Assembly: GCA_947631505.1 (NCBI GenBank)
Contig: CANRLR010000005.1
Span: forward strand, 62,001-126,000
Length of the DNA stretch: 64,000 nucleotides
Direction: 5' to 3'
DNA from: an uncultured Lachnospiraceae bacterium
Lineage (GTDB): Bacteria; Bacillota; Clostridia; Lachnospirales; Lachnospiraceae
Shown here piece after piece: positions 42,866 through 64,000 of this stretch (positions are counted from its first letter, which is position 1; each line of letters begins with the position of its first letter). The translations under genes were made by a program, and so were the position numbers. The notes under the pieces are model-generated. The model was given only the letters and a program-made list of their open reading frames with translations. It made no database searches and was not told the DNA's origin.

Positions 42866-42902
42866 TACATTTAACAGATTACTAAAATCGGAGAAAAGAA
42901 AC

Positions 42903-43601
42903 ATGAATCATTACATAAAAGACTCAAACAGAATCTATGTCTATGCCATGCCGGTTTTGGATTCACGCATGTATATTGTCATAAACGACCAAAATCCAAA
43001 AGAGGCTCTTATTATTGATCCCTTATATGATAAAAATGCCGTGCCCGTAATCCGGGAGCTGGCCCACGCTTCTGTTCTTCTTACCCATTCCCACTATGAC
43101 CATATTTCGGGAGTGAACTGGCTGCGGGACCAAGTAGACTGCACCGTTTTCTGTTCCGAAACCTGTGCGGAAAAAATATGTGATTCCAATAAGAACTTTG
43201 CTGCTTTTGCCACCGCTCTCATCATGGGTAAGACCGAAGAAGAGCGGGAAAGATGCATGGAATTTTTTGAATTGGATTATACCTGTCAGGCAGACAAGAC
43301 CTTTCATAAAGAAACCGAATTTGATTTTGGCAGCTATCACGCTGCTATCCACTATACACCCGGACACTCCGACTGCAGCCAGTGTATTCAACTGACAACG
43401 CAAAAAAAAGGACTGGCACCTGACATTGTCTTTACTGGTGACAGCCTTGTCAATGGACATAAGGTAATTACCCGGCTTCCGGGAGGGAACCGGAACGATT
43501 ATAACAGAATTACCAAACCATATTTGGATTCTCTGACTGAGGATACTCTGATTATGCCGGGACATGGGAACTGGAATCTGAAAAAAGGAATCATACAATA
43601 A
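42903..43601 (+). CDS. Metallo-beta-lactamase-fold hydrolase
   Basis: A 232-aa MBL protein: zinc motif LLTHSHYDHISG (HxHxDH), then HYTPGHSDCS and FTGDSL, and a late PGHG. ATG 42903 has GGAG upstream; it resembles glyoxalase II-like hydrolases. Substrate unknown. It is on the opposite strand to the large cluster and convergent with it. Confidence 0.85.
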   Translation: MNHYIKDSNRIYVYAMPVLDSRMYIVINDQNPKEALIIDPLYDKNAVPVIRELAHASVLLTHSHYDHISGVNWLRDQVDCTVFCSETCAEKICDSNKNFAAFATALIMGKTEEERERCMEFFELDYTCQADKTFHKETEFDFGSYHAAIHYTPGHSDCSQCIQLTTQKKGLAPDIVFTGDSLVNGHKVITRLPGGNRNDYNRITKPYLDSLTEDTLIMPGHGNWNLKKGIIQ

Positions 43602-43608: not shown

Positions 43609-45324
43609 TTATTCCTTTTTAGAAAATTCCAGATCCACACGGATCACCACATCCGAATCCTTCCACATCTTATCCGAACCTTCTGTCGTATCTCCGACAA
43701 ACCGTATTTTACAAGTCTCATCTTGTATCCCCTTTTTCAAAGAATAGGAATACACCCCCTTATTTTCTCCCTTTTTCAGTATAATTTTTTCTCCCGTATC
43801 CGGGGCCAGCATATAGAGATTACAGTCTTTACGAATTCCTGTATCGGACACCTCATCCTGAACCGATACCTCCACTTTTTTAACCGTGACCTGTACATCA
43901 AAATTGCTCTCATTCTTCAGCGTAATATCATCTGAATAAATCTGTTCCCTTCCCGTCAAACGCTGCGGATCAATATGTATTGCAAATTTTTCCGGCATAA
44001 GTACCGATATGAGTTCCGGCTTTGATACCTTTACTGCCCTTTTCTCGGTAGCAGTATTACCGGCATTATCCGTCACAGTCACAACAACCGAATAATCCCC
44101 TTCTTTTTTAAATGGAATCGAAAATTCACATTTCGTCGGCACCTCCAGCCCTTCATCTAACAACGTGCTTTCTACGGTCGACAAATTTGTAATTGGATAG
44201 GATTGCCCATTTACCTGACATTCCACATCGCGAATACCGGAAACAATATGGCCTGCTTCCTCAATATCCACCCAGAAAGTATAAGGTGCTGTACAAAATG
44301 TATCCTGTGAAAGCTGAATCTGCGGAGCCTGATTTTCTATCAGAAAATAATTTGACCAGATGTCCGACACATTACCGGCAGCATCCATATAATTTGCAGC
44401 GATTTGTCCATAAAAATTTTCCGGAACTTCAATTCCTGTATTCGCAGATAGATCAATACAGTACGTAAGTTTTTCACCATACACATAGCGTATTTTTTCT
44501 GCTCCGGTCCTTACTGTTTCTCCGCTATGAGCCACATCCACTGGTATCTTATTGTCATTGGCACAATAAATAGTTTTATCCTTTCCCTGAATTTTAAAAT
44601 ACTTTTCCTCATCAAGAACAAACACCGGAACTTCCGTATCTTTCGTTTCTTCCTGTGATACAGCAGAGACCGCTGCCCCGGATTCCACTGCCTGCGATAT
44701 AGCAGCAGGAGAAGCCTCTTTTATTTCTTTACCGCCAATCGGATAAACCTCTCTCTTTATGTAATCAGCTTCTGACTGCACGCCATCATAATTCTGCTCA
44801 TCATCATAACCAAGCTCAACCGGATACTGGTAACACCTCTCCATTGTTTCACTTTGTTTATTTCCGCCATTGTTCTCAAGCAGTGCCTGAACCGGAGAGA
44901 GTATTTCCTGTTGTTGTTTTTCCCTGTCCGACTGTTCCTCTGATGTGCTTGAAGAACGATTCGCAGCCACAACATTCCTGTTCTGTCCTGTTTTTCTATC
45001 CTCTTTCTCACTGGCCTTTGTATAGACCCGGGAACCATTCATCTCAATGCTTGCTCCTGTCTGCCCTCCGATAACACGGTTATGATTTTCAGGCAAGGTC
45101 TCTGCCACTGTCACTTCCTGTTCTATTATTTTCGGTTCCCGCTGCCCCACCAGGGAAAAAACAATTACGACAGAGAATACCAGACTGCAAAAAGAAACCG
45201 CAAATTGTTTTTTTATCCTCACCGGGAGCTTTCGATTCAGAACCAGAAAAAAAACATAAATATACGCAATAAAACGAATGCATTTTTTTCGGATTCTGCC
45301 CTGATTCTGCTCTCTTTTTTTCAT
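43609..45324 (-). CDS. Membrane-anchored Ig-like protein, last gene of the giant-protein cluster
   Basis: A 571-aa protein with a basic cytoplasmic N-terminus, one membrane segment (FAVSFCSLVFSVVIVFSLVG, residues 40-60), and a long extracytoplasmic part. After a low-complexity Gln/Glu/Ser linker there are at least two Ig-like beta modules (SANTGIEVPENFYGQIAANYMDAAGN; PFKKEGDYSVVVTVTDNAGNTATEKRAVKV). It is the only member of the cluster with a clear outside domain apart from the permease. Seems to be co-transcribed with it (16-nt gap). Confidence 0.75.
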   Translation of the reverse strand: MKKREQNQGRIRKKCIRFIAYIYVFFLVLNRKLPVRIKKQFAVSFCSLVFSVVIVFSLVGQREPKIIEQEVTVAETLPENHNRVIGGQTGASIEMNGSRVYTKASEKEDRKTGQNRNVVAANRSSSTSEEQSDREKQQQEILSPVQALLENNGGNKQSETMERCYQYPVELGYDDEQNYDGVQSEADYIKREVYPIGGKEIKEASPAAISQAVESGAAVSAVSQEETKDTEVPVFVLDEEKYFKIQGKDKTIYCANDNKIPVDVAHSGETVRTGAEKIRYVYGEKLTYCIDLSANTGIEVPENFYGQIAANYMDAAGNVSDIWSNYFLIENQAPQIQLSQDTFCTAPYTFWVDIEEAGHIVSGIRDVECQVNGQSYPITNLSTVESTLLDEGLEVPTKCEFSIPFKKEGDYSVVVTVTDNAGNTATEKRAVKVSKPELISVLMPEKFAIHIDPQRLTGREQIYSDDITLKNESNFDVQVTVKKVEVSVQDEVSDTGIRKDCNLYMLAPDTGEKIILKKGENKGVYSYSLKKGIQDETCKIRFVGDTTEGSDKMWKDSDVVIRVDLEFSKKE

Positions 45325-45340
45325 GATTCAGCCCCCTTTC

Positions 45341-46192
45341 CTACCTCATCTTCTTATGTGTATAAATGGAAAATGCCGCCCCCAGCATGACCACAAACAA
45401 AATGATTGCACAAACGATATAGCTTTTCTGTATTTTCAATGCCGGCCAGCTCCATGTAAGCGGTGATAAAAGAGTCAGGATATCCAGCCGTTCTCCCAGC
45501 CTTCCCAACCGCTCTGCAATTTCACCATCCCGCCCTGTGATTACAAGCAGTTCCGAAAAAAAACGCAGAAGAGCCGGAATCCTCGAAAACAGCCACGGCA
45601 GTATAAGAACTGCTATGACAGAATCTGCCGTAACTCCTTTTTTCGGCTTACAAGCGGCCATGAACAAGGCAACGGAAAGATACAGCATACCAACCAAAAA
45701 TAGTATACTATAACAAACGAAAGCATTTCTCACGCCCTGATTCTGTCCCAGCAGCAGTGCAAATAATACATTCAGCAATAACAATGTAGAACAGCAGCCC
45801 AGTAGTTCTCCTCCCCACACAAGAAGCTTTGTCGCAAAAATCGTCTTTCGGTTCACCCCTGCATTGTGCAGATAGACCACCGTCTCTAACCGCTCCTCCT
45901 CTGACAATGCCTCTGACAGCTCTGTCATCATAACATAAAGCAGATAAAAAGGATATACTAATACAAAAAACTGCCAGACATTAAGCCACAGATCCCCGGA
46001 CCAGGGTTTCAGACAGAGGAGATCCTGTAACAGAGCCGGCCACTTCATATACATTCGGTTCAGTGCCGGAAAAAAGAAATCAACCACCACACATATTCCA
46101 AACAGCAGGATTGAGAAAATTATGGGAAGAACAATATATTTTATTAAATGTTCTTTTTTTCTCCTTAGCTCAAAATACAAAACTGTCCTCAT
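45341..46192 (-). CDS. ABC-2-like membrane protein
   Basis: A 283-aa protein with six predicted membrane segments (for example IVLPIIFSILLFGICVVVDFF; LLGCCSTLLLLNVLFALLL; SYIVCAIILFVVMLGAAFSI) in the ABC-2 permease order, starting MRTVLYFELRRKKEHLIKY. ATG 46192 overlaps the stop of the ATPase-like gene (ATGA), so the two are translated together and likely form a complex. Confidence 0.75.
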   Translation of the reverse strand: MRTVLYFELRRKKEHLIKYIVLPIIFSILLFGICVVVDFFFPALNRMYMKWPALLQDLLCLKPWSGDLWLNVWQFFVLVYPFYLLYVMMTELSEALSEEERLETVVYLHNAGVNRKTIFATKLLVWGGELLGCCSTLLLLNVLFALLLGQNQGVRNAFVCYSILFLVGMLYLSVALFMAACKPKKGVTADSVIAVLILPWLFSRIPALLRFFSELLVITGRDGEIAERLGRLGERLDILTLLSPLTWSWPALKIQKSYIVCAIILFVVMLGAAFSIYTHKKMR

Positions 46193-47067
46193 GGCAGCCA
46201 CCTTTCATAATTGTGAAAAATTTCCTCTTCCATCGTAAGCTCTTCTATATTAAAATTATCACAACCTGTCTTGCTTAACCGGATTGCCAGCTCCCTCATG
46301 CTCTGTTCCCGATAGAGAAAACGAAAATAATTCCGTCTCTTAACGAGAACCTCCATCTTCTCCGGTAGCAGGGAAGAAATGTCGCCTCCCCACATCGTAA
46401 CAACTTTGGAAGGTCTGGGAAGCTGGTCCCGATTATAACAAGCCTTTATTTTCCCGCTTTCTAAAAATAAATACTTATGGCACGGCATAATCAGATTATC
46501 ATAACTCTGAGCTGCCATTACAAGTGCTGTTCCATCAAAAAACTGCCCGATTAATTCTCTTATTAAAAGCCGGTAAGTATTCTCCCTCAGCATGTCATAA
46601 GGACGGTTCAATAATAACAATAACGGCTTTGCCATCATTGCCTGTATCATGGACACCAGGCGGTTCTGCTCAAAAGTCATTTCAAGCAGTGGTTCCTTTT
46701 CATCAATTCCAAAAATGTCCACCAGCCTTTTTGCAGCCTCTTCCAGCTCCTCATTCCCATTCGCCATTCCATGCAGGAACTCTTTTACGTTCAGTCCGTC
46801 ATAACATACAATATCATCCGGTACATACTGAAACCTTTTATGGACAAAAGTCCCCTTCTGCTCCGGCATACAGGGATAATCAACGTTACCGCGATCCGGT
46901 ACATACAGACCTGCGATAAGCTTTAATACCTCTCCTGCACTCTCATCCTCTGAAATCAGTGCCGTAATCTGCTTTTTTCTAAGGACCAGAGATATGTCCT
47001 CTATCCGGTTTCCCTCTTCCCCTTTTACTGCAGCATGACTGCAGCTCCATAAAATATCTTCTGCCAT
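46189..47067 (-). CDS. ABC-type ATPase-like protein with all catalytic motifs lost
   Basis: A 292-aa protein with the overall ABC ATPase order, but: the Walker A place reads ALISEDESAGEVLKLIAGL (no GxxGxGK[ST]); the signature place reads MTFEQNRLVSMIQAMM (no LSGGQ); Walker B reads LLLLNRPYDML (Asp to Asn, Glu to Arg). Surrounding family residues (LKLIAGLYVPDRGNV, then FLESGKI) are well kept. It can hardly hydrolyse ATP and may be a scaffold or regulator for the neighbouring membrane protein. Confidence 0.8.
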   Translation of the reverse strand: MAEDILWSCSHAAVKGEEGNRIEDISLVLRKKQITALISEDESAGEVLKLIAGLYVPDRGNVDYPCMPEQKGTFVHKRFQYVPDDIVCYDGLNVKEFLHGMANGNEELEEAAKRLVDIFGIDEKEPLLEMTFEQNRLVSMIQAMMAKPLLLLLNRPYDMLRENTYRLLIRELIGQFFDGTALVMAAQSYDNLIMPCHKYLFLESGKIKACYNRDQLPRPSKVVTMWGGDISSLLPEKMEVLVKRRNYFRFLYREQSMRELAIRLSKTGCDNFNIEELTMEEEIFHNYERWLP

Positions 47068-47157
47068 GACAGTCCCTTCTCTATCGTTTGCGTATTCCTA
47101 CCTTTATTGTAATGAATCTGCGGAAAAATAGCAACCGTTTTCTACTATCAGCGAAGG

Positions 47158-50100
47158 TTAATTCATTTTATAAATTTTTCCATCCAGTTCAATCAGCTTG
47201 ATACTGCCGGCATACTGGCGCACAGTAATTTTGACCATACCCTGCTTCTTCTGCTTTATCTCCTTTTCCAGAATATCTAAAAAATGTTTGATGGTATTCT
47301 CCGTCATTGTATGCGGTATCATCTTCTTCACCGGATGCATTGCCGTAAGCCCACCGCGCAGAGGCTGTCCGAAATATGCGGTAAGTTCTGTTCTGAGGGA
47401 CGGCGAAGCATTCTCCTTCGGCATAAAATTTTCCAGCAGTTTTCGGACATTTTCCCTGCTGTAGCTTTCGACATCCGAATCCCTCATCAAAATAAACGGA
47501 TAGACCGGAGCACTGAAACCACATTCCGGTGTTGTATAAACAAATGCAGGATTTGCATCCATTCCAAGAAAACGGGCATTCCGTTTCAGATATAGCTCCG
47601 TCCACATACCCGGATATTCATAGAGCAGGATATTTTCAATCGAAAATATATATTGTTGTGCTGTTCCCGGTGCTATCCTGACCTCATCCGGAATCTGGTA
47701 GCGTGAAGTCTTTTCATCATAAGCAGCCTCTACCTTTGTTCCGTCTTTCCGTAAAAGCATCAGTTTCGGAATATGGCTTTTCAAAAATTCGGGCAGCTGC
47801 TCTACACACAGACCGCTCATGTGACCTTCTTTAAATTCGGGAGTAAGTACCCACTCCGGTCCTGCCCCCATGCGTTCCTGTTTCACCGGCCACGCACTGC
47901 ATACCGAATCTGCCACTGCTGCAAAATGTTTCAGTGCGGCATTGCGCTTCGTCTCGTCCGCCCCGAACATTACCTGTTCATAACCGGCAAGATTATAAAT
48001 AAAATCTGCCAGCCCATCCATCAGATCCGCAGACTCTCCCTGTCTCCTGTTTTCCGCCAGTATCTGACTGTCCCGGATATGGAAAAACAACGTATCCTGT
48101 GCCATAAGTGCTGCCGTCATCGTAAACGAATAATTCCACACCGGATTTTCTCTCATCCTTTGGTCCGAAGAGGCCTGTTGTTCACTTAACACAGGTACAT
48201 CCGGGTACTGTCTTTCCGGAATCGGCAGCTTCACGGAAGTTCTGTCCGTATACTGATTCAAACTGACCTGAACATACGAATCAAATTGACAGAATGAACC
48301 GACGAACCGATACCACTCATTGTCATTCGTATCCTCAATGTTTGTGAACGTGTAAGCTGCCCCCTCCATAGAAATCTCTTTCTGTGCTCCGACCACCGCC
48401 GGAGCCGTAACAAATCCGACCTGATCTGCCTGTGTAATTTTGGCTCCCAGTACCCCCACCGGTGCATCCAACTGTCCGCTCAATGCATATCCGCTCATCT
48501 TTCCTTCCACTTTATAAACGGCTGTTCCTGCTGCAAGGTATCCGGTAGAAAGGTTCTTTCTCAGAACATCTTTCTGTGCCTCTTTCGCCACTTCCAGCGT
48601 CTCTCCCTCCACAAAAAGATTTTCCATGCGTCCTACAATTTTATCACAAAATTCTTCTTTCCTTTCCAAAAGCTCTTTTATCGTTTGGGCAGTTATGCTC
48701 CGGTTCTCCCCCGAGAGAAAAAGATCCAGACTTTCCGGTGCCAGAATCCGTTCATAAAAAGCAAAGAATGCCGAAGCCCATTTTTCCAGATCAATTTCGT
48801 AATAATCCATCTTAACTGTCTTACCGGATAAATCGGTTATGGCAATTCCCTCCCTGCTTTTCAGGCTGGTCGAAAGCGGGCACAGGGAATAAAAGAGCTT
48901 TTTCGGTTCCGATGGCGTAACACGTAATGTACCCTCGGGAAAGAATACCGCATACAGTCCATCCTTTTTCGCAAGCTTTGCATGGGTAAATATTTTCTCG
49001 AACTCCGCAGCAAATTCCGTATCTTCCCCCTTCGGAACAAGTTCCGAACAGACCGCCTGCACATTCGGCAGTTTTGAAGTCTTATCCGTGAACTGTGCAT
49101 CCCTCGCTATCGTAAATTCTGACCTGAGTGCCACAATCGTGATGTTCTCCACACTCTTTGGCACCGTGTTCTTCAGCACCAGTTCCATCGTAAAATCACT
49201 TGGTCTGCTTGTTCCCGAAGCAGACGATAAATAGGCAGAAAGTTCCCTCATAAAGGAAAGCAGTTCTTCCTTTACCGCTGCACTGCATTCCTGTTCCAGC
49301 CGGCAGTATTCCTCCTGCTCCCTTTCGTCTGTCATTACAAAAGCAGCCTTCAGCACGACATCCGCCATTGAAATCTGATCCATCATATTTTGCAGCACAC
49401 TGACATCCTCTGTCTTTCCACTGCTTTTTTCCTGAACCGCAATACAGACAGACAGGCACAGGTCTTCCGCCTGCTTCGCAATGGAATAGGAAAACGAACA
49501 AAATGGAAGCTCTGTCAGCGCATGAAGATTATCATAATAGAAAAGCTCCATTCCATCTGCCGGATACCGCTGTTTCTCCGATGTGCGGTTTCCCGCAATA
49601 TCCGTAAAGGAGAACGACAGCTCTGCCTGATTCGGCGTATAGGTCTCCCCTCGTTTATAGTTCTCAGGAATAATACGTGCATACGGATTCGTATCCTGCT
49701 TGAGCGGCGGCAGCTTCAGAAAACTACTATAATAAAATCCATCCGAACTACTTCCTTCTGCCTCATTCTCCTGCATACTGACAGGTTCGTTTACTTCGCC
49801 GAACAGTTGTGTACACAACAGATGAAACGGGGTGGCGTCTTCCTGTTTTCCTTCTATGGTAAACTCATATCCCAAGTACCCCGGAGCCACACTTTGCAGC
49901 GGCTTTTGACCTAACTCCTCATTGACAACAACAGGGACCAGCCCTTCCTCCGTGCAGACATCCAGACGGATTCGGTTTGCAAGGCGGTTATCCGTCAGCC
50001 AGACGGCAAGAAACAGTGTCGTCTCCCCCTCATCATCAAAAAGAAGAGAATCCGGCTCATCATCTACTTTCAGATAATGCCCTTCCCCTCCGGTCTTCAG

Positions 50101-53100
50101 CACCTTGTCAAGCAGCATAAGAAAACCATACGGGCTGTCGTTCGGACACACCAGCACATCCACCTCGTCATCTGCCGCATTCTGCTGCCTGTTATAAGCC
50201 GTTGTCACCTCAGAAAGATTCTGACGGATCAGATAAACTTTTTCGTTTTCCTCTTCTTTATAATAGAAAGCCCCCTTCTTTTTCTTTTCCTCACTTGATT
50301 CCACCTTCTTGCTCCACAAAAGTTCAAGTCCGTTCACGTCATCCTTCCCGATACGCGCAAGCAGGTTTCTTGTTTCATCAGACGCTCCGGTTACCATATA
50401 AATCTGTGACTCTGCCGATGTTCTCTTCAAGGTGACATCCAGAAGTGCCACCGGTGTATCCATCGGTTCTGCCTCCGCCATCACATTCTGAGTAAGCCTG
50501 CTCTGCTCCCAGAACTGCAGATTGAGCGTTTTCAGATGGGAAATATCCCCCTGCGGCTTCCAAAGATAATACGACTCCGCATCCTCCAGATATACTTTCT
50601 GGCAATCCTGCATGGCAATTACATAATCTGCCATCCGGTAGTAAGCAGGCTGTGCCGGTTTCCTGAGAAACCGGACCGTCAACGGCTCCCGCGGATAGTT
50701 CAATTCCGAATTATGGATACCGATTTCCAAAGTCTCCGTCAAGACCCATGCAGCATCTGCTTTCCGTTCTAATAGAAGCCTGTGTGCTGTAAAATCCGTT
50801 TCTGTTTCCTTTTTCTCCTGACCATTGAACTGCTGGTTCAGCTTCTCATACATCGGAAGTCCGTCAATCCGGTTTCCGCAGAACATCGCCCTCGTCACCA
50901 TCGCACAGATGTTATCCTTCTGCTGTTCACGAAGATACGCAAGAAGCTCCTCTACCGTTTTCGTCCCTTCCTGCTCTTTCATATACTGAACTGCCTTATC
51001 CACACAGAGCTTCGTTACCATCAGGATAAAGTCACAGAACCATTCCTCCGGGGAAACGTTTTCCGCAGTCAGACTCTCCTTCTCCGGTTCCAGAAGCGTT
51101 TCCCATGTCACCGAATATACGGGCGGAATCGGTAATGGCACACGTTCCTGCTCCTCTCCCTCTTTGTTCCATACAATTTCCATTGAGAAATACTGTCCAA
51201 AATAGGAGTTCAGGGATTCCATCGTAAACGAGTCTTTCAGTTCGCCATCCTGAAGTTTTTCCAGCAGTCCTTCCATCTCTGTCAAAGATACGCTCTGCTC
51301 CCCGCTTTTCCCGAGAAATCCAATCGCTCTCTCTGCGAGCATCCCATAAAAAGAAGTAAAATCTTTCTGGGAAAGGGATAAGAAAAAGGCAATTTTTTTT
51401 ACTCCGCCTGTCTCCTCTTCCTGACTGGTTTTCCCTTCATCCCAGTCCACCGATATATTTTCTACTGAAAAATAAGAGACGATCACTCCCACAACGTGCA
51501 GAGGCGTTACCGCAACTTCATTTTTCCCGTCAATCCAAACCGCCTCTTTCTGCCCTTCCAGTTCTTTCTGCTTCCATGGCCTGTCCTCCTTTTCACCAAG
51601 AACAAACTCCGCCTGCCATGTAAAAGAAAATTGGAAAGAAAACGTAATGAACAAAATCTTTACCCTTGCCGACACACTGAACGAAGCTTCAAAGACAGCA
51701 ATTCCCTCTTCGCCATCCTCCAGAGTAAGACAGATCGAGGCTCTTGCACAGACCCGGAAATTCACGCTGATCACATAAAAATTAATACTGCCGCTTATCT
51801 CCCCGGCGATGGCAACGTAACCGGTACACCGGTAATACCAGCAGGTGCTCTCATTTTGTCCCGATATATTATAATGAAACTGGGCAAACACTCCGGTAAA
51901 AATTCCCGTAAGTTCCAATTTTGCACTCAGCTTCAAAATGCCCGCATTTAAACTCTTCCCCACCTGAATGCAGATACCGACCCCCAGTTCAATGACCGGA
52001 CTGAAATATCCATTCGCAGTCTCCGGCACCTGAGATGAGGTATCCCCATTTAAATAACCGAAATAAAAACCTCCCTTTCCGGTAAAAATACCATAAGTCA
52101 ATGCAAAGCAGAGCGAAAAATCACGTTCATACGGAAATCCGAAATTGATTTTAAAATTGCCATTCGTATAAATCCATATTTCCACATCCGGCAGATCAAT
52201 GGATAGTGTCCCAAAATCCATATGTTTAATAAAATCCGGGAGTACGGCATGAACATAAAACACTCCGATTTTCTCACTGACTTTCCTGTAATAGATCGTC
52301 AGGTCAAGCCCTTTTAACGGCAGCGGTTCATTCTCTGTCACCTCTACCTCTAACCCATACAGAAGCGGGTCATAAAAGAGAAGGCTTACCTTAAAGCAGT
52401 CTAAAAGGGTAAACTGTGCTCCGATAAACCAGCCATATTCCGCACTGAATTTTTCGACCGGCACCTCCGAAACAGCCGTAACGCTTTCCTTTGCTTTTTC
52501 CAGGATCCCGGAAAGTTTCCCATCCTCCACCCCGCTCAGATTCAGGTCGATATAACGCCCGATTCCGAAATAAGAGAGACGGAACAATTTCTCTGCCGTC
52601 TGGTCAAGCGGTGCCGGGCTGTCTTCACTCAGTGCATCCCATGGCTGGATCGGGTCCTGAAATGCTTCATCCTGCTCAAAAGCACCATCCTCTTTTTTTG
52701 TTCCGATCAGCCACTCATGGTCGAGATTGACCATAAATTTTGCCTGCTCATCTTCTGAATCCTTTTGATAGGCAAATGTCACACCTTTAATTTTTACGGC
52801 AAGAAGATTAATATTGACCGCAATCGAAACAGAAACATCTTTACTATTCGTATCAAATTTGAGGGTGACTTTAGAAAATCCGACCTGATTTAAAACATCC
52901 CATGGCTTGGACAAATAAAATTTGACATTCGGACGCCAGACCTGAAACAACAGTTTCAGCAAAATGCCGATTGTTAGATTCTGAATCTCGACCTCAATCA
53001 CATCATTCTGATACCTGCCGGTCAGTTTTGCCCCGCCGAACTCCAAAAGCAGTGCCAATGTCTGTGTGCCCTGACTGTCAATCTGTATCTGTGCCCGAAA

Positions 53101-55074: not shown

Positions 55075-55079
55075 CCGCT

Positions 55080-56279
55080 TTATGCATCCTGCACAGTAAA
55101 TGTCAATATTTTTTCCTCCGAAAGTTCACATACGAAATCATATAGTTTTTCCTCCGGTTTTTTCGTATCAAGATAGGAATAATTAACAGTTCCCCCTCTC
55201 CCGCCCTGTACCGGAATCACTCCTTCAAAGGTATTGGCAAAAGCAAATGATGTGTACTTATTTTGGGTAGTAGAAGTACATTTATATTCGCGAAGATAAC
55301 CTTTTTTGGGATTCCCTTTTTTGTTCAAAAGCATCTGAAATCCCGCACAATTATGTTCGGAATTCTGTCTGGACACTTTTTGTGCATAGATGTCTAAAAT
55401 ATCAAAGCAGGGATGCCAATGATACGTCCGATAATAGGCACTCGCATAAACGCAGCATGCTTTTATTTTATCAGAAAATTCTTTCGCACTCTTCAGCTGC
55501 CCGTCCAGCGTTGTCCCGAAACTGATTATTTCTCTGCTGCACGCTGTCTTAAGAGCAGCATGATGAGGTACAATCAGAACATTATATTTGTTTTTAATCA
55601 ACTTTTCATAAGTTGGGTCTTTTCTTTCAACCGCCTGATCCATTTTTTTATTCATGTAGTCAAATGTCTCCACGGTCGCATCCCCGCCGTAACATATATT
55701 AGCCGTCTCCCCTCTGCTGTTCGTATACTCACAGACCGCCACCACCGAATTGGAATTTATCAATGCGGTTTTTTTCTTAATTTCCATACAGTTTCTGCAA
55801 GCAAGGAGCCGGATAGCAAATTGCTGCCCATATTCCTGCTCATATAGGATTGGGACTGCATAGTCACCTGTTGCCGTAAAAACAATCTTGTCCTCTCCGA
55901 ATTTTTTCAATGCTGCAAACAGTTTTGTTATGTTTGATTGTATTCTCTTGCCGGCACCCTTGATCATGACATCCGTAACTGAGCTGATTCCGGCCGGTGT
56001 TCCACCGACAATTACCTTTTCCACTTCTTCTATTCCCTTTTGCAACAGAGTTTCAATCATGTTAATATGGTCCAGATCGGTATGCGATATAATAATATAA
56101 TCCAGTTTTTTCCCTGTCACTGCAAAAATTTTATCTACAGCAGTAGAAATTGGTAATTTTTCCGCCCTTCCCATTGAGCCGCAATCAATCAGTATATTTT
56201 TCACACCCCCACTGTATGCCAGCTGTATCAGGTTAGCCGTCCCCTGCCCGACATAATATGACCACGATGTCACTTTCAT
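55080..56279 (-). CDS. ComEC-type metallo-beta-lactamase-fold protein
   Basis: A 399-aa MBL protein: MKVTSWSYYVGQGTANLIQL (ComEC-like VGQG start), ILIDCGS, metal motif IISHTDLDHINM (HxDxDH), ICYGGDATVE and VPHHAALK. ATG 56279, preceded by AAGGAAATG, 4 nt after the previous gene. Unlike ComEC it has no membrane part. It belongs to the cluster and may act as hydrolase or nuclease; substrate unknown. Confidence 0.85.
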   Translation of the reverse strand: MKVTSWSYYVGQGTANLIQLAYSGGVKNILIDCGSMGRAEKLPISTAVDKIFAVTGKKLDYIIISHTDLDHINMIETLLQKGIEEVEKVIVGGTPAGISSVTDVMIKGAGKRIQSNITKLFAALKKFGEDKIVFTATGDYAVPILYEQEYGQQFAIRLLACRNCMEIKKKTALINSNSVVAVCEYTNSRGETANICYGGDATVETFDYMNKKMDQAVERKDPTYEKLIKNKYNVLIVPHHAALKTACSREIISFGTTLDGQLKSAKEFSDKIKACCVYASAYYRTYHWHPCFDILDIYAQKVSRQNSEHNCAGFQMLLNKKGNPKKGYLREYKCTSTTQNKYTSFAFANTFEGVIPVQGGRGGTVNYSYLDTKKPEEKLYDFVCELSEEKILTFTVQDA

Positions 56280-56283
56280 CCTA

Positions 56284-59265
56284 TCATTTCCTTTCATATG
56301 CCCCATAAAAAGCAAGTTTATTGTCTTCCGTGTTTCCAAAAACATAAAGCCTGTTACTGCCGTAAGGAAACTGAAGCCCGAAGAACTTGAGCACAAAATC
56401 TTTCAGCAGAAAATAAAATGTTTCTCTCGTCTCATTCTCATCACTGACTATGTTTTTTTTCAGTTCGACCGCTTCCACACCTAAAGACATCATTCCCTGA
56501 ACCGGAAAAGGTGCCGTTGTCCCGGAGCGCTCTCCGATTCTCACTCCCACATAAAGTTTGGGAAGTCCAACATCAATATCTCCCTGATAACTTTTCTCCG
56601 TATTTCCCTCTGACCATGCCAGCATAAAATGCAGTTTTACATCCATCGCCTGTGCAAGTGCCCCCATTCCTCCCAAATGAATGTCCAATTCCAGTCCGGT
56701 CCAATTGTCGCCCAATTGCTGCTGGGTAATACCGTCCGCCGAAATCCCTTCATAACCAAACTGCTCCGGAGGACAATTCCGGTAAAGCCCGAGTTTTTTC
56801 ACTTCCAGCGGGAAACTTGCTCCCAGTGAATTCCGGCGCACGGAGCTTTCCTCCATCAGAAATTTCATATTATCTGAGCTGCCCGCATATTCTTCTCCCT
56901 CCACATCGACCTCCAAATCCAGGAACCGCAATGGGCAGGATTTCTGTTCCTCTGCCTCCTGCTCATCCTGCAGCTCATCTCCAAAGCTGAACAGATCGCT
57001 CTCATAGGTTTCAAAGAAAATCCCACCGGAAAAATAAAAATTAACCCGGTTTCCTTCTTTGGATGACAGCAGTTTTGCCCCGTTTATCTCCATTCTCTCG
57101 ATAGCAGAACCGGAAAAGTAATAATTTCTGTCATCCTTCAGCGCAAACAAAAACCTCGCCGTCTCCTCCGTATCCGTCTCGACATTCCGCCATCCTTTTA
57201 TCGGGATATAATTACCGGTCGATGAATCCACCGCCGAAAGAGGGGAGCCGAACAGATAAAAAAGTGCTACCGACAGCTCGCAATAAAAATCCTTTTGCTC
57301 CGAATTTTCAAAGCTGGCATAAAACAAATTCAGCCGGTAATAAAAATCATACTGCCTGTCCGGTGCACTGAAATCCCTATTTTCATAATGAATGAGACCG
57401 GAAACTTTTGAAGGGGTTATCTCTCCCTCTTCGTCGACAGTACGCCGGTCAAACGCCATATACTGTAAGGAAAGGTGCGGGGGCTTCCCCACATTTGCCA
57501 AAAACCGTATCTCCGCCGGAAGATTCCCGGACGCGACCGGCAGTTCCAAAAGAACAGCGCCGCACCAGTTCCTGTCATAAAAAAGAGCTGCCGATTCTTC
57601 CGATATTTCTTTGAGACGATTTTTTAAAATCTGTGCCGCCTTTGCCCGGTCCTCCGCCTCTGCCGGATAAGACCACTCGGACGTTTCCTCTGCGTATTCC
57701 ACAATTGATTTGTCTGCCGCATATTTGATAATCAGCACGGTTTGATCGGACCACTGGGAAGGAGAAAAATCAAACTGCCATCCCTCAATCTGAAACAGTG
57801 GTTCCTCGCTCAGAAATTCTGCCTCCTGCAAAAAAGCTTTCGTATCTGTCACCACCACAAAAGGCTTGGCACACAAAAGGGCCTTTTTCAGTTTTCCCCG
57901 TACATTGGCAAACCGGAACTTATCCGCCAGTTCCAGACAGGCAAGGCTGTCGCTTCCTCCGGCATAGGAGATAACCGTTCCTCTCTCATTGATTGCCCGC
58001 TTTGCCTCTTCCTGCACCTGAAAATTATCGTCCCCTGCTGCCAGACTGGTGCTGCGGAACGGCTGAAGGCAGTCCGTATCCAACTTTGACAAATATTCCG
58101 GATACTCCTGTTCAAACTCCTCTCCGGTCAGTCCCAAAGGAAGCATCGAAAATGGCAGATCCTGATTTATCTGGCAGAACGGAATTTCTAAAAAAGCATA
58201 ATCCAGACCGTTCTCCCGAGAAAAAAACGCCGCTTCCTGTCCCTGAGCATAATAAGTCCCCCCCACAGAAAGATATGCTGTCTGTCCAGAAGTTTCCGGT
58301 TCTTTCTGCCCTGTGGGAAAATGTGCTCCCTTTCCCGCATAAAAAGAAAGAATACTTCCTTTTGTAAAGCGGATATACTCAAGTCCGCTGCCTCCCGGCA
58401 AAAAATCTCCCGCCTCACTGACAATTGTAAATCTCCCATTAGGAACAAGATGATACCGGTATGATGTATTATTCTTATAATTCCTCTCCACGGAAAAAAG
58501 CAGGACAGCATCCCCTTTCTGTTCCAGTTCCAGCACCAGATTATCACCGGATGATGTAGGGAACGCTGTGTCATAACGCCCTGCCGGCAAGGTAAAAAAA
58601 GTCCTCTCCCTCTGCTCCGGATGCAGAACGTCCAGCGACACCGGTACCGAAAAAGAATCCGACCGTAAGGAAATCGGCTGCACCTTTGCCTTTTTTAGCG
58701 ATTGTCCCTCTTTTGTATAACACAGAAATACGCCCAGTTTCTTCAAGGTGGTAAGCCCATCCAGCGAAAAAGAAAAGCACCCCGCCAGATCCTCCATTTC
58801 CAGCCGGAGCCCCTGCCCGGTATAGAAAAAGCCAATGAGGCGGTAGAAATTATATCTCCCGTCCAGTTCCAGATATTCGTTCCCCTCCTCACCACATACT
58901 TGTATTATGCCGCCCGCACTGATTTCAAGCCCATAATTATGGATGGGAAAATTCACCGTACCATCCAGCCGGAATTTCCCTTCCCCCATCCTCGTAAGCA
59001 TCATACGGTACAGGTTATTGTTGTGTTCAAAGGAGATCCTGCTGCCCGGACGGCGGATGAATTCAGGCAAGAACTCCCTGAGCCGCTCCTCTCCGCCGTC
59101 TTTTTCCAAAAAAATCAGGCAAAAATCCCCCTCACTTACCAGTGTTCTCAGTGTGTACGAATCTGCTGTCTGCTCAACTTCCTTTTCGCGGTACAGAAAA
59201 ATCCGGCTCTCGAACTTTTTATGTACAAATAAATTCTTTGTATTACACGGTTTAAAATTACTCAT
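56284..59265 (-). CDS. 993-aa cluster protein, unknown
   Basis: No signal peptide. N-terminus MSNFKPCNTKNLFVHKKFESR, then beta-rich domains, a helical middle segment (residues 415-570, AEDRAKAAQILKNRLKEISEESAALFYDRNW) and a second beta-rich half ending LQFPYGSNRLYVFGNTEDNKLAFYGAYER. ATG overlaps the end of the first gene by 8 nt. No family recognised. Confidence 0.7.
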   Translation of the reverse strand: MSNFKPCNTKNLFVHKKFESRIFLYREKEVEQTADSYTLRTLVSEGDFCLIFLEKDGGEERLREFLPEFIRRPGSRISFEHNNNLYRMMLTRMGEGKFRLDGTVNFPIHNYGLEISAGGIIQVCGEEGNEYLELDGRYNFYRLIGFFYTGQGLRLEMEDLAGCFSFSLDGLTTLKKLGVFLCYTKEGQSLKKAKVQPISLRSDSFSVPVSLDVLHPEQRERTFFTLPAGRYDTAFPTSSGDNLVLELEQKGDAVLLFSVERNYKNNTSYRYHLVPNGRFTIVSEAGDFLPGGSGLEYIRFTKGSILSFYAGKGAHFPTGQKEPETSGQTAYLSVGGTYYAQGQEAAFFSRENGLDYAFLEIPFCQINQDLPFSMLPLGLTGEEFEQEYPEYLSKLDTDCLQPFRSTSLAAGDDNFQVQEEAKRAINERGTVISYAGGSDSLACLELADKFRFANVRGKLKKALLCAKPFVVVTDTKAFLQEAEFLSEEPLFQIEGWQFDFSPSQWSDQTVLIIKYAADKSIVEYAEETSEWSYPAEAEDRAKAAQILKNRLKEISEESAALFYDRNWCGAVLLELPVASGNLPAEIRFLANVGKPPHLSLQYMAFDRRTVDEEGEITPSKVSGLIHYENRDFSAPDRQYDFYYRLNLFYASFENSEQKDFYCELSVALFYLFGSPLSAVDSSTGNYIPIKGWRNVETDTEETARFLFALKDDRNYYFSGSAIERMEINGAKLLSSKEGNRVNFYFSGGIFFETYESDLFSFGDELQDEQEAEEQKSCPLRFLDLEVDVEGEEYAGSSDNMKFLMEESSVRRNSLGASFPLEVKKLGLYRNCPPEQFGYEGISADGITQQQLGDNWTGLELDIHLGGMGALAQAMDVKLHFMLAWSEGNTEKSYQGDIDVGLPKLYVGVRIGERSGTTAPFPVQGMMSLGVEAVELKKNIVSDENETRETFYFLLKDFVLKFFGLQFPYGSNRLYVFGNTEDNKLAFYGAYERK

Positions 59266-62200
59266 CTGTTCCCCATTTCTCTCCTATGTACAAACAGTCT
59301 CCCATATACAATAACAGATCCTTTATATCGTCATACCCCGCATCCACGGTTCTTCCCTCTCTTTGCAGCCTCAACTGTACAGTATCCATTCCAAACCGTT
59401 CTACCATATCAGCAACCGTCGTAAAAAATGGGACCGTATGAGGGTGCCCATTGACAAAGACCTCCATGCATGGCGTCATATGTACCCTGCCCTTTAAATA
59501 GCTTCCCTTGATATCTGCATCGGCACAATCCGTAGTATTATTTTCAAAGAAATAACGGACGCCGGTATCCAGCTCCCGATAAGTCGGGGCAGCCAAAAGT
59601 GCGACATTTCTCGCCATCATCGGATTGACCAGTGTTCCCACTGACGGAAACTTGGAATGGTAGGCAAGCACCAGATAGGGGCGTTCCATCGTACTGCTCT
59701 GTAAATCAATGACGGCGGCACCGCCTGTCGTATAATATCTCTCATCGACAGGATGTCCCTGCTCTGCCGTCGTTGGCTGTGACATAAGGTCGACATAGGA
59801 ACCATTCCCCAGCTTCCTTACATACGGATCCAGACATAGTCTGCCATCCCGTTCCACGACACAGAACTGCTCTTCTGCCGACGCCACATAATCATTCAGA
59901 TATTCCGAATCATTTTCATCCCCCACACACTCATACATGCTGTGGCTGACTCTCACGGTAACACCCGGAATGAGTTCTAACACCGACTTCGCTTCTTCAA
60001 AATCAGTTCTGAAATGAAGCTTATAAAATGCCTGCTCCTCCGGCGTCATCGGAAGATAATCCCCAATGGTCTTCCGAATTGTGCGTATCTGGGATGCTGT
60101 ATAATTCTTTTCTTCCAGTTGTTTCAAAAAGCTTTCATAATTTTCCTTAACGGTCTCCCGTTTTCCGGAATTCCCGTTTTCACCATCCGAAAAACTCCAG
60201 ACATCTGCCAGCATTTTTAAATAAGTCACGCCGTCCTCTGCCACAAGCTGAAAAAGCAGTTCCTGACCAATTGTCTCGGAACAGCTGATATCCGCCAACC
60301 TTACTTTAATATCCGCTGTCATATCTATCTTCGGTGTATCCGACAGACAGATCACCATTGCACCATCTTTCTCCACTACATAAAACTGCTCTTTTTTCAG
60401 ATCTACAGCATTCGGGAACGGTCCCCGTACCACACCGGACGAATACGCCAGACTCGCTGTTGTCTGTGTTGTTTCTTTCAGTGATACGATTTCCGTCTGA
60501 TTCGGGCCCTTCACCGCAGAAACCGTAGTACCGGATTCCTTGACCGCATAATCATGCAGACAATTATAATCCCCTGACATCTGTAAGGATACATTCCATG
60601 CCGTTCCCTCTTTTACCCGTTGAAACTCCATCTGTTCGATTTCCGGCATCTGCAAAATAAGCCGATAGGCCCGGCCGGCATTTGTAAAAAGCTTACCTTT
60701 CCGGCAGCGGAACCGTACTTCATATTCCGTAAAGCCATCTGCCTGCACCTGCTTCATCGGAATTTCAAGCAGATAAGTGCCGCCGGACTGCGAAGCGGAC
60801 ACGGAATCTGTAACATACAGGGATTCTCCCTCCCGAAATAGTTCCGCCATAAGTTTCGCTTCCGTATAGACGGTCTGATTCATTGACACCTCCAATTTCA
60901 GCTTGTCTTCCCCACCAGATGCTCCACTTACAATCTCTGTATGAATCCATCCGGTCTCCGGTTCTTTCAGAATAACGGTATACGTCTTCGGCAAATAGAA
61001 AGCAATCTCTGCTCCGCAATCCTGATATTCCGCATACGCAGAAAGTGTTAACTGTGAAAAGTTCTCTACCCCATAATCATACAAATCAAAGGTTCGTTCA
61101 AAAGGAGTCAGTGTCACATGCCTTGTAATACCGGCGCCGGAAGAATCCGTCCCTTTCAAACTTACGAGCACATTCTCCGGAATCAGCTTTTCGCACTGGT
61201 AGTCAAACATCATCTTCCTGCTGTCTATAAATCCAACCCGCTCCACCTGAAAGCCCGTTTTCGGCAGTGCAACAATTTCTTTGGAACATGCCGCCTTATT
61301 TCCGGCCGGATAAACATACAGAAAATAGTCATTCACCGCATCCAGGTCATAATAAATGGTTCCCTGCATCTGTCCGGCAGAAACAGAAACCTCAACAGGC
61401 TCTGTAAGGCAGTCACTTTTTAACCCCAACTTAAATTCACCCGAAGAAGTCTGTCTGTCCTTCGTATCAAAGGAAACAATATATTCCATTTTCCCCTTAT
61501 TTTCTCCCTCCTCGGTAACTTCTCTGCACAATACCTGCGTAATGTAAGGAGGAATCTCGGATGTATGATCCGACTCTTCCCATTGAACATCCTCTTTCCA
61601 CAAAATATCCCTCTCCTGATACAGTTTGCAATATTGGCGGGCTGCCTCCACGTCCTGACGCCAGTTCTCGCCAATCGCAAACCTTTCACGTTCCTGACGC
61701 CATTTCTTGTCTGCCGCATATTTTTGCAGGTCATTATCTCCGGTCAACAGACCATTGGCATAAAAAACATGTTCTTCGATTGGCAGCTCCCTGCCATCCG
61801 GGCTCTCCAGAATCAGGCTGTAAACACGGTCATCCTGAAAGACATAGCGGTTAACGTCCTCTACGTGCTCCTCATCCCCATCTTCTGTAACAATATAGAT
61901 ATCCGGATAATCAATCAAATTACAAGCCAAAACAATTCCCTGATTGGTAATCATCGGATGCTGATCCGATACATATACCTTTTTACTCTCTGTCTCAATT
62001 AAGAGAACACCGAGCGGCTCCCTTCCTTCCACAATATCTTTCACTCTCAGACAGCCTTCCTGGCTCTTTACACAATCACCGGCCTGAATTTCCTCGACCC
62101 GCTTTCTGCTTCCGTCTTCCATTGTAATTTTCGTGCCAAGATAAAGACATCCCCAGTATATTCTCATAAATCCTACCTTTTTATAATCCGCAGGGAGCGA

Positions 62201-63205
62201 CTGGTAACTGTTTATCGTCATAACATGGTTTTCGTCTTCCGAATCACTCCGCAATTTATAGACCAGCTTAAATTCAAAATCCATATCATACGATTTGCTT
62301 TGAGCAAAAGGGCTGCTCGTCACCCATGGTATCGTCCCGAAATCCCATGAAAATCCCCGCCGCGTCACCTTGCCGTCACTTGTTTCGGAAACCGCCTGAA
62401 ACGCACGGATAAAATTCTCCGGTGTATTCTGATACGTTACTTCTCCCCCATTTTCACCCTGCATAAATATCCGAAGTTCCGACATTCTCTCCTTGTCGCT
62501 GCCGGAATCCGCTTCTTTTGTCGTATCCGGCGGAATCACCGTATCGAACCAGTCATTGACGTCCTTAAAATACGCTGTTCCCTTTAGCGGAATATAGAAA
62601 TTATCTCCTCCGCCCTCCGGCACGAAATAGTCCTCTGCTTCCTTTGCCTGTACTCTCCTGTTATAGCAGATATAAATATGATCCCTCGGCGGATTCTGCT
62701 TTGAAACCGGGTCCACAATCTCAATTGTATCAAGCATCGGATAATCAATTTCATATACTCCGAGCTCTGTTTCCGAAGTGGTTTCCTGTGCATTCACCAC
62801 CCCATCCGTTTCCTCTGTATAGCGGTCTCCGGTCAGCACAGCAACAAGCTTCTTGCCATGCCCCTCCTCATAAGTAATACTGACATTACCGATTACATTG
62901 CAGACACCGCCAAAAGAAACCGACGTCGTCCCTTGTTTGATTAATCTCCGCCCCGTATCCGTCTCCTCAAAAAGATCGACACGAACCGACAGGGAATGAA
63001 CCGGGTTTACCACCGTATACTCGCCATCCACCTGAATGCTCTCCTCCGTCATCAGGACATCCCTGACAAAAAGGCCATCATGAAGAGGGGGCATAGTATT
63101 ATCCATGCCCCCTCTGTTCCGCATCTGTTTTCTGTTTTTCAACGCCTCCGAAAGCAACGGAAGCTTTTTCATATCCTCGGCCATTACATTTAATTCTTTT
63201 CCCAT
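59258..63205 (-). CDS. 1315-aa protein with an embedded Hint (Hedgehog/intein) domain
   Basis: First gene of the cluster; ATG 63205 (AAGGAG 7 nt upstream). Residues about 353-490 form a Hint domain: nucleophile Cys in WGCLYLGTKITMEDGSRKRVEEIQAGD, block B-like VYVSDQHPM (His), and the end HVFYANGLLTGDN. The typical terminal His-Asn is Ala-Asn-Gly, and no +1 Cys/Ser/Thr follows, so splicing is unlikely while N-terminal cleavage or branching remains possible. Before it are beta modules; after it fibronectin/Ig-like repeats; the C-terminus (TVADMVERFGMDTVQLRLQREGRTVDAGYDDIKDLLLYMGDCLYIG) looks like a beta-grasp. Function unknown. Confidence 0.75.
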   Translation of the reverse strand: MGKELNVMAEDMKKLPLLSEALKNRKQMRNRGGMDNTMPPLHDGLFVRDVLMTEESIQVDGEYTVVNPVHSLSVRVDLFEETDTGRRLIKQGTTSVSFGGVCNVIGNVSITYEEGHGKKLVAVLTGDRYTEETDGVVNAQETTSETELGVYEIDYPMLDTIEIVDPVSKQNPPRDHIYICYNRRVQAKEAEDYFVPEGGGDNFYIPLKGTAYFKDVNDWFDTVIPPDTTKEADSGSDKERMSELRIFMQGENGGEVTYQNTPENFIRAFQAVSETSDGKVTRRGFSWDFGTIPWVTSSPFAQSKSYDMDFEFKLVYKLRSDSEDENHVMTINSYQSLPADYKKVGFMRIYWGCLYLGTKITMEDGSRKRVEEIQAGDCVKSQEGCLRVKDIVEGREPLGVLLIETESKKVYVSDQHPMITNQGIVLACNLIDYPDIYIVTEDGDEEHVEDVNRYVFQDDRVYSLILESPDGRELPIEEHVFYANGLLTGDNDLQKYAADKKWRQERERFAIGENWRQDVEAARQYCKLYQERDILWKEDVQWEESDHTSEIPPYITQVLCREVTEEGENKGKMEYIVSFDTKDRQTSSGEFKLGLKSDCLTEPVEVSVSAGQMQGTIYYDLDAVNDYFLYVYPAGNKAACSKEIVALPKTGFQVERVGFIDSRKMMFDYQCEKLIPENVLVSLKGTDSSGAGITRHVTLTPFERTFDLYDYGVENFSQLTLSAYAEYQDCGAEIAFYLPKTYTVILKEPETGWIHTEIVSGASGGEDKLKLEVSMNQTVYTEAKLMAELFREGESLYVTDSVSASQSGGTYLLEIPMKQVQADGFTEYEVRFRCRKGKLFTNAGRAYRLILQMPEIEQMEFQRVKEGTAWNVSLQMSGDYNCLHDYAVKESGTTVSAVKGPNQTEIVSLKETTQTTASLAYSSGVVRGPFPNAVDLKKEQFYVVEKDGAMVICLSDTPKIDMTADIKVRLADISCSETIGQELLFQLVAEDGVTYLKMLADVWSFSDGENGNSGKRETVKENYESFLKQLEEKNYTASQIRTIRKTIGDYLPMTPEEQAFYKLHFRTDFEEAKSVLELIPGVTVRVSHSMYECVGDENDSEYLNDYVASAEEQFCVVERDGRLCLDPYVRKLGNGSYVDLMSQPTTAEQGHPVDERYYTTGGAAVIDLQSSTMERPYLVLAYHSKFPSVGTLVNPMMARNVALLAAPTYRELDTGVRYFFENNTTDCADADIKGSYLKGRVHMTPCMEVFVNGHPHTVPFFTTVADMVERFGMDTVQLRLQREGRTVDAGYDDIKDLLLYMGDCLYIGEKWGTDE

Positions 63206-63461
63206 ACATTTCTCCTTTTCTTTACTTTTTCCTACAATCATCTGCTAAATGTTATAAAAATCATAACATGATTCGACAGTTCAAAAAAGGAACAATACAC
63301 CGCATTTTTTATAAAGATACATATGCAGCCAAGCTGTCTAATTTTGAACGACTCGGCAAAAAAATTGTTAAATTTTTCCCTTTTTCTTCTAAGGTATTTT
63401 AGTGAAACATCCGATATAATTAAAAGATAGACGTGCATTTCCAAGGAAAGGGGGATAGAAG
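63206..63461. other. Intergenic region between divergent genes
   Basis: About 255 nt. It contains an inverted repeat ATGTTAT / ATAACAT (63248-63268), 45 nt before the 1315-aa gene, a possible operator for the cluster, and TATAAT at 63414-63419 facing right. Confidence 0.5.
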
Positions 63462-63698
63462 ATGTCAAATCAGTCTAGTGAAGAACGGATTTCTCAAAAG
63501 TTATCACGTGATTCCGCAAAGAATTCTAAAAAGAATACTGCCATTGTCGTTATCATCATAGGAATTGTCATCATTGCCATCGTGGCACTTATTTTAGTCT
63601 TTGCCCGTCAAACTGAACCAAAACGGAATGTCGTTGTGACTCCCGATAATGTTGATGAGATTCTTTCTGACATGAAAGGTCAAGTCACAATTTTATAG
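63462..63698 (+). pseudogene. N-terminal remnant of a membrane-anchored protein
   Basis: A good ribosome site (AAGGGGG) and ATG, cytoplasmic polar N-terminus, one membrane segment (AIVVIIIGIVIIAIVALILVF), then only about 25 residues (VVVTPDNVDEILSDMKGQVTIL). The family-like stretch stops at DEILSDM, as if an extracellular domain were cut off. It meets a second truncated gene here. Confidence 0.6.
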
Positions 63699-64000
63699 CA
63701 TCTTTCACATAAGCGCTCCATTCCGGAAACATTGTAAAAATTATTGCCAAATAATTCAACCTTTGAACATACCAATTTAAGTGATTTTCTTTCCGCAAAC
63801 TCATACTTTCTTTCGATTGCCTGTTCGAGTAAAATATCATCTCCTGCCACAATCTGAACATATTTGCCATGCACCTGATTTATAGCAATATTGCAATTTT
63901 TTGTCACTCCATGATTTTTCTTTGCAATAAGAAATCTAGCTTTGGCAAATCGGTTCTGATACTTCCGCAGCCACTTTCCTACGAGCTTCACGGTATTATC
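63680..64000 (-). pseudogene. Glycosyltransferase family 2 fragment, 3'-truncated; 5' end outside window
   Basis: About 107 codons of a GT2-type enzyme: NRFAKARFLIAKKNHGVTKNCNIAINQVHGKYVQIVAGDDIL holds the GDD (DxD-like) motif, and LKLVCSKVELFGNN follows. It then stops at CERCYKIVT where the family normally goes on for at least 100 residues. It overlaps the membrane-protein remnant by 19 nt. Confidence 0.65.

Follow-up and report, generated by a model that had tools for sequence, protein, structure and literature searches.

A gene cassette scattered over twelve bacterial phyla couples two partner proteins of no recognised family to an exchangeable enzyme

A conserved cassette with an exchangeable enzyme

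Analysis of a 64,000-nucleotide stretch from an uncultured Lachnospiraceae bacterium (contig CANRLR010000005.1, positions 62,001 to 126,000; the whole stretch is called the window below) revealed a cluster of minus-strand genes, four of which form a conserved cassette. They encode a Hint-domain protein (P1), a second large protein (P2), an enzyme of the metallo-β-lactamase (MBL) fold and a giant protein. P2 and the giant are an obligate pair, and the place between their genes, here called the slot, is taken by unrelated enzymes in different hosts. We hold with moderate confidence that the cassette is a mobile conflict system of modular build, whose effectors can be exchanged and mostly attack DNA, and we lean towards a role in offence. 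In the window, the cassette comprises the following features.

59258..63241, minus strand: P1, Hint protein, 1327 residues from the first ATG (open reading frame list, Pfam)
61735..62149, minus strand: Hint domain in P1, residues 365 (Cys of WGC) to 503 (GDN); Cys and His conserved in all seven sequences aligned
59261..60361, minus strand: conserved C-terminal region of P1 (family p1c) with a beta-grasp-like end (alignment of 13 sequences)
56284..59265, minus strand: P2, 993 residues, forms an obligate pair with the giant and belongs to no known family (open reading frame list, family and plasmid searches)
55080..56279, minus strand: slot enzyme, MBL fold, ComEC-like, 399 residues from the ATG at 56279 (HxDxDH, GD and HH motifs)
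47158..55074, minus strand: giant, 2638 residues, TTG start, no LysM match in this copy (open reading frame list, Pfam)
51505..53637, minus strand: conserved core of the giant, residues 480–1190, amphipathic beta pattern (alignment and amphipathicity)

P2 and the giant are obligate partners

We scanned 84,980 genomes with two short peptide patterns derived from four relatives, which confirmed 148 places. The best 80 were kept; they come from 12 phyla, assigned from record titles and tree groups, and together with one viral contig they make up the 81 loci considered here. P2 and the giant form an obligate pair: simple gene calling places P2 upstream of the giant and on its strand in 75 of the 81 loci, a reading of all frames raises this to 76 (by adding L050), and the five loci without P2 (L022, L025, L032, L046 and L091) begin at a contig end. 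When P2 and the giant core were searched apart, both returned the identical eight of 72,556 plasmid records. Within the genus, P2 is present in two of 39 genomes, both of which bear the giant. Across the relatives, P2 measures roughly 1000–1300 residues and the giants mostly 2500–4700.

No convincing family for P2 or the giant core emerged from Pfam, NCBIfam, PHROGs or the sequences in the PDB. In Pfam, P2, the giant and the permease-like protein described below gave chance-level matches only. The best PDB-sequence matches, antibody chains for P2 (E 0.31) and a tail needle protein for the giant core (E 0.44), were likewise taken as chance, and the C-terminal half of the giant matches PDB sequences at LysM. 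We thus face two families of obligate partners, present across 12 phyla, for which neither the curated libraries nor the PDB sequences searched offer a convincing match. Homology between P2 and the giant core was not supported (probability 0.3%). DUF6603, a candidate name for similar giants, was absent from the Pfam matches of the window giant and three relatives, and no paper was found for it.

An earlier note on this DNA, made from its letters and reading frames, had described all three large proteins as beta-rich. This description holds for P2 and for residues 401–1200 of the giant, in which beta-type exceeds alpha-type amphipathicity, and fails for P1. A Pfam scan of the 800 residues that follow the core, covering 58 of the 65 post-core stretches, detected LysM in 36 of the 58 giants, which suggests that many giants may bind to the peptidoglycan or chitin of another cell.

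Unrelated enzymes are exchanged on one chassis

The space between P2 and the giant is filled by one or more slot genes, and the flanking genes vary, as judged by eye. Over the 81 loci, DNase I-like (EEP) enzymes account for 25 slots (23 between P2 and the giant, two on truncated contigs), MBL enzymes for 20, GT-B-like enzymes for nine (four separate genes, one on a truncated contig and four fused to the N-terminus of the giant), HNH enzymes for three and a deaminase for one. When mapped onto the tree of the giant, the slot changed at least nine times over the 53 rows with a recognised enzyme, counted without a shuffle baseline and with 16 further tree rows excluded; the least possible number of changes for five kinds is four. 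Unrelated enzymes are therefore exchanged on one chassis. Such swapping of unrelated nuclease-type enzymes is a hallmark of biological conflict, so that the cassette can be tested directly as a candidate interbacterial weapon or immune system of a new kind.

Most of the enzymes are of nuclease-like kinds. Among PDB sequences, the best matches of the EEP profile are DNase gamma and DNase I (E about 1e-12), and the MBL profile is closest to ComEC proteins (E 1.7e-8). The MBL enzyme of the window (P0003) matches Lactamase_B in Pfam above the cut-off (E 3e-7) and carries the metal-site motifs HxDxDH, GD and HH, which are invariant in 13 aligned slot enzymes; with these motifs of ComEC-like MBL nucleases it is predicted to be a nuclease. 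Five Bacteroidota forms have HxHxDH in place of HxDxDH. These are also the five MBL enzymes with a signal peptide (L060, L061, L066, L082 and L092), and they perhaps represent a different branch or a different enzyme. Two of the HNH assignments come from Pfam matches (L034, E 8e-4; L078, E 8e-6) and the third, L083, from similarity, while the deaminase of L038 exceeds the Pfam cut-off. Because the GT-B-like part is fused to the N-terminus of the giant in four loci and is encoded by a slot gene elsewhere, we suggest that slot enzyme and giant work together.

Two further arrangements were observed. In a Lachnoclostridium locus (L100, 1–693), an MBL gene lies upstream of the Hint gene and not between P2 and the giant. 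P2 on the Paenibacillus plasmid is preceded by a gene for a trypsin-like, Nal1-type protein (E 1e-7, above the cut-off).

P1 is an accessory protein with a putative self-cleaving domain

The Hint domain of P1 gives a weak Pfam match (Vint, E 0.0017, below the cut-off). Its Cys and His are conserved in all seven aligned sequences (six with WGC, one with WHC), all of which end in GDN, GDM or GDF and not in the His-Asn of splicing domains. As the domain keeps its Cys and ends without His-Asn, P1 is predicted, by the known chemistry of Hint domains, to cut once before this Cys, probably without splicing. Residues 170–539 and 1015–1304 of the window P1 match two adjacent Tistrella proteins in blastp searches, so that P1 unites in one frame what Tistrella encodes as a Hint gene and an fn3-type gene. 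For the C-terminal end, the PDB sequences yielded a ferredoxin-type beta-grasp at E 0.09 only.

P1 is an accessory component; in other hosts one finds its C-terminal part alone or a small repeat protein. The C-terminal part is found in 34 of the 81 loci, the Hint domain in six and the small repeat protein, first met in Azospirillum, Mycetohabitans and the genome G053, in eight; these counts are lower bounds, as the loci extend only ~10 kb upstream of the core.

The cassette is rare, widespread and under constraint

The 12 phyla are Cyanobacteriota, Acidobacteriota, Bacteroidota, Actinomycetota, Pseudomonadota, Bacillota, Verrucomicrobiota, Chloroflexota, Ignavibacteriota, Fibrobacterota, Vulcanimicrobiota (titled Eremiobacterota) and SAR324, many of the sources being metagenome bins that may contain foreign contigs. 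Despite this breadth, the cassette is rare. Among 145 genomes near that of the window, the giant matched in four: the window's own, G033 of the same genus (a 2860-residue giant preceded by an MBL enzyme and P2), G053 of the same family (a 3521-residue giant preceded by P2) and G102, whose match is weak (E 1.7e-4) and has internal stops. In genome samples of at least 90% completeness, it was found in two of 393 genomes of the class, namely the window's own and G522 with a partial, weak match (E 1.2e-11, part of the giant core only), and in one of 398 genomes of the phylum, again the window's own.

The eight giant-bearing plasmid records come from Azospirillum (two), Nostoc, Tistrella, Mycetohabitans, Embleya, Paenibacillus and Lysinibacillus, and seven of these loci were examined. 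Embleya has P1, P2, MBL enzyme and giant in the order of the window; in Tistrella, the order is Hint protein, fn3-type protein, P2, MBL enzyme and a giant annotated with LysM. Two queries with the giant matched none of 50,697 phage records, and in the viral data one IMG/VR contig carries a cassette locus.

In a tree of the giant core (69 rows, 645 columns), members of different phyla group together with starred support, for instance Peptococcaceae with Rhizobium, an Acidobacteriota bin with Trinickia, and Oscillatoria with Flavivirga; the mixing may owe something to paralogy and mis-binned contigs. The window row groups with Lachnospiraceae and G033 (95/97). Two cassettes on separate contigs were seen in each of two bins, one of Ignavibacteria (L062, L070) and one of Oscillatoria (L035, L093); the two Oscillatoria cassettes carry different slot enzymes, EEP and GT-B-like, and are widely separated on the tree.

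Ratios of nonsynonymous to synonymous substitution (dN/dS) were 0.07–0.18 for the giant and P2 in four pairs of relatives and 0.11–0.23 for the slot enzyme in three, values that are rough since several dS exceed 1 and that indicate purifying selection on all three proteins in these relatives. The slot enzyme was the least conserved in three of three pairs (67 versus 73–74%, 70 versus 84–86% and 86 versus 89–92% identity).

Comparison with known systems

Polymorphic toxin systems share with the cassette very large proteins, Hint domains, exchangeable nucleases and deaminases, and wide transfer, as described in passages of PMC3482391. In both cases unrelated effectors are exchanged on one carrier. 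However, the toxin of these systems is the C-terminal tip of the carrier, whereas the cassette effector is usually a separate gene between the chassis genes or, in four loci, sits at the N-terminus of the giant. P2 and the giant are unrelated in Pfam to the carriers named there, and no Pfam match to the trafficking domains of type V, VI and VII secretion systems (T5SS, T6SS, T7SS) or Rhs was found in the window proteins or the relatives scanned.

Extracellular contractile injection systems (eCIS) resemble the cassette in having LysM as an associated domain, varied toxins and operons that have moved laterally, found in Chitinophaga, Streptomyces, Flavobacterium and further environmental bacteria (Geller et al. 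2021, PMC8213781). They are tail-like operons, whereas the cassette has two to four core genes. P1, P2 and the giant had no tail-family match in PHROGs and the MBL enzyme had one at E 0.16; neither PHROGs nor the gene maps revealed a tube, sheath or baseplate.

Tc toxin complexes and Rhs proteins are large beta-rich carriers with a variable toxic part. This logic of carrier and variable toxin is similar to that of the cassette; no such Pfam domain is present in the window proteins or the relatives scanned, which sets them apart at the level of Pfam families.

Among defence models in PADLOC, the window MBL enzyme is nearest to LmuA (E 4e-10), RTasMBL and Avs1a, and it also matches 6A-MBL of NCBIfam far below the cut-off (E 7e-10). 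Lamassu LmuA, Avs1a, the reverse transcriptase-associated MBL and 6A-MBL have the same broad MBL nuclease fold as the slot enzyme, but PADLOC matched the MBL enzyme only and none of the partner genes of such systems (SMC-type, STAND ATPase, reverse transcriptase). Overall, NCBIfam, PADLOC and PHROGs returned MBL relatives and generic ABC models for the window proteins, with otherwise weak matches. The earlier note knew of no described system with its set of seven genes, and the cluster with giants, a Hint protein and an MBL enzyme indeed appears to be undescribed, with a core order that recurs elsewhere. Among the papers listed by searches of the open PMC (PubMed Central) literature, none names the cassette; as preprints and most subscription journals lie outside this coverage, its novelty is provisional.

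A mobile conflict system as the favoured explanation

In the mechanism that we favour, P2 and the giant would serve as a conserved chassis, rich in beta structure in P2 and the core of the giant at least, and would probably assemble into one large complex. The gene between them would supply an effector that can be exchanged, in most cases a predicted DNase (DNase I-like, ComEC-like MBL or HNH) and less commonly a deaminase or GT-B-like enzyme, which the complex would bring to foreign DNA. The LysM of the giant may attach to the peptidoglycan or chitin of the other cell, and the Hint domain of P1 would make its single cut before the Cys. No Sec signal was seen among 75 P2 N-termini (by eye and by hydrophobicity) or among the giant N-termini listed, and we therefore assume that release would proceed through lysis or another route. 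Offence is favoured by LysM, Hint, the toxin-type deaminase and nucleases of kinds that toxins use; in favour of defence are the kinship between the MBL enzyme and anti-phage proteins and the fact that no immunity or delivery genes are visible. Only tentatively do we go further and consider the cassette a new modular weapon, that is, a very large self-assembling complex, unrelated to phage tails, T6SS, Rhs/Tc and contact-dependent inhibition, that would carry interchangeable, mostly DNA-attacking effectors into other cells in at least 12 phyla.

Several observations weigh against a conflict system with DNA-attacking effectors. Classic bacterial toxins need immunity and secretion genes; no conserved immunity gene was seen by eye, and no secretion genes were seen near the cassette. 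The window giant itself has no LysM match in Pfam, and its row in the tree has a very long end branch (1.98). A recognised slot enzyme is missing from 23 of the 81 loci, which show small proteins, nothing or the L100 arrangement, and the slot profiles were partly built from the very loci that they classify. The EEP profile also matches sphingomyelinase (E 1.5e-4), so that a lipid target is possible for some of these enzymes, and single EEP members match Pfam weakly (Nostoc, E 1.2e-4) or not at all (L041, L042). The GT-B-like label stems from motifs identified by eye, with no PDB-sequence match, and only one deaminase occurs among the loci. The signal peptides, being confined to the HxHxDH forms, say nothing on the location of the other MBL enzymes.

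Intracellular anti-phage defence, in which P2 and the giant would act as cytoplasmic sensors of infection and would turn the slot nuclease on phage or host DNA by releasing or activating it, is a rather doubtful alternative. It would fit the proximity of the window MBL enzyme to LmuA, RTasMBL, Avs1a and 6A-MBL, the patchy and mobile distribution, the absence of an immunity gene by eye and of Sec signals on P2. However, LysM, Hint and a toxin-type deaminase would be odd in a cytoplasmic sensor, P1, P2 and the giant have no PADLOC match, some slot enzymes carry signal peptides, and no obvious defence island appeared among the flanking genes of the listed loci, which were inspected by eye without a control comparison.

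We consider it unlikely that the cassette encodes a surface or extracellular assembly with a peaceful task, such as degradation of environmental DNA or matrix building, with digestive DNases. Although the DNase I-like and ComEC-like enzymes, LysM, the collagen-like genes beside some cassettes and the signal peptides on five MBL enzymes would suit such a role, the swapping of unrelated enzymes, deaminase and HNH included, is more conflict-like, and presence is very patchy (one of 398 genomes in the phylum sample).

Three neighbouring genes look like a local addition

Downstream of the giant, three further genes continue the cluster.

46189..47067, minus strand: degenerate ABC ATPase-like protein, 292 residues, outside the conserved cassette (Pfam, blastp to the cassette loci)
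45341..46201, minus strand: hydrophobic permease-like protein, 286 residues from a GTG start, outside the conserved cassette (blastp to the cassette loci)
43609..45324, minus strand: Ig-like protein, 571 residues, N-terminal hydrophobic segment, outside the conserved cassette (Pfam, blastp)

The seven closely packed minus-strand genes of the earlier note are present, and their sizes agree except for the choice of start codon: P1 has 1327 residues from the first ATG, 1315 if begun 12 codons downstream; the permease-like frame has 286 from GTG as against 283; and the open frame of the MBL enzyme spans 55080–56396 (438 residues from a TTG), with 399 residues from the ATG at 56279. From P1 to the Ig gene, the gaps measure −8, 4 (with the 399-residue MBL start), 5, 90, −13 and 16 nucleotides, so that the one larger gap, reported as about 90 nucleotides before the ATPase-like gene, is exactly 90. 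The domain labels Hint, MBL, degenerate ABC ATPase and Ig-like hold as well, with the Hint, ABC and Ig matches below the Pfam cut-off. Homologues in 12 phyla and dN/dS of 0.07–0.23 (four pairs of relatives, the window copy excluded) support the view that the frames are real genes. Promoter-like sites were near chance (12 versus 8.4 and 5 versus 3.5), terminator-like sites numbered 1 versus 3.1 and 2 versus 0.5, the latter two on the plus strand, and neither kind was used as evidence.

The ATPase-like protein matches ABC_tran at E 2.9e-4, below the cut-off. It has no Walker A GK[ST], reading SEDESAGEV at the GxxGxGK[ST] site, and LLLLLNRP at Walker B; lacking these residues, it is not predicted to drive a functional ABC exporter. 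The permease-like protein is hydrophobic and has no family match, and the Ig protein matches Big_13 (E 2.3e-5, below the cut-off). None of the three had a blastp match at E 0.01 among the open reading frames of the 81 cassette loci; 64 of these extend at least 1 kb beyond the giant and 40 at least 3 kb, which makes this a good though incomplete test of the neighbouring genes. Matches were equally absent from the G033 and G053 stretches and from the proteins of the seven plasmid loci. The permease was found in none of 140 relatives other than the window's genome, a whole-genome search made for the permease only. On the Azospirillum plasmid, a separate ABC ATPase gene follows the giant.

The earlier note had treated all seven genes as one system, to be abandoned if the large genes had different neighbours elsewhere. 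This is the case for the ATPase, permease and Ig genes (43609–47067), which may matter in this one strain without defining the system, and not for the four core genes (47158–63241). That the ABC pair and the Ig protein form a membrane half that displays or exports the giants is thus highly improbable and a system of all seven genes is rejected, despite the shared strand and small gaps, as none of the three genes turned up beside the other copies of the cassette that were searched, the permease occurs in no other of 140 relatives and the ATPase lacks the Walker residues.

Genes around the cassettes

KAS III-like, ACP and SDR genes flank the cassette both in the window (63680–64000, continuing on the contig beyond; L005) and in G033 (L007, 12428–19569). 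The best pairs are 39–50% identical, the genes lie upstream in one and downstream in the other, and the two giants share only 28%. In G053 (L010–L012, joined 4416–32779), the cassette stands back to back with a phage-tail-like block that ends in a lysin-like gene. A prophage origin of this cassette was considered and rejected: the tail-like genes, so judged by eye, adjoin it, but no integrase was seen by eye and the stretches compared share no 15-mer repeat.

Caspase-domain genes on the opposite strand were noticed twice, near the Nostoc cassette (L013, 29039–31183; Pfam E 7e-20) and, by eye, after the giant in Lewinella (L038). Behind the Nostoc giant, a gene (L013, 22395–24755) encodes a laminin-G domain together with a weak papain-like match. 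Collagen-like genes with G-x-Q/P repeats lie just before P2 or after the giant in L039, L063, L065, L070, L078, L083 and L085. On the other side of the cluster in the window, a second, unrelated MBL-fold hydrolase, by eye of the glyoxalase II kind, is encoded on the plus strand (42840–43601) and faces the cluster. Four minus-strand genes (37895–41445), which look by sequence like rmlC, D, B and A of dTDP-rhamnose synthesis, lie ahead of the cluster, after the phage-like left part of the window.

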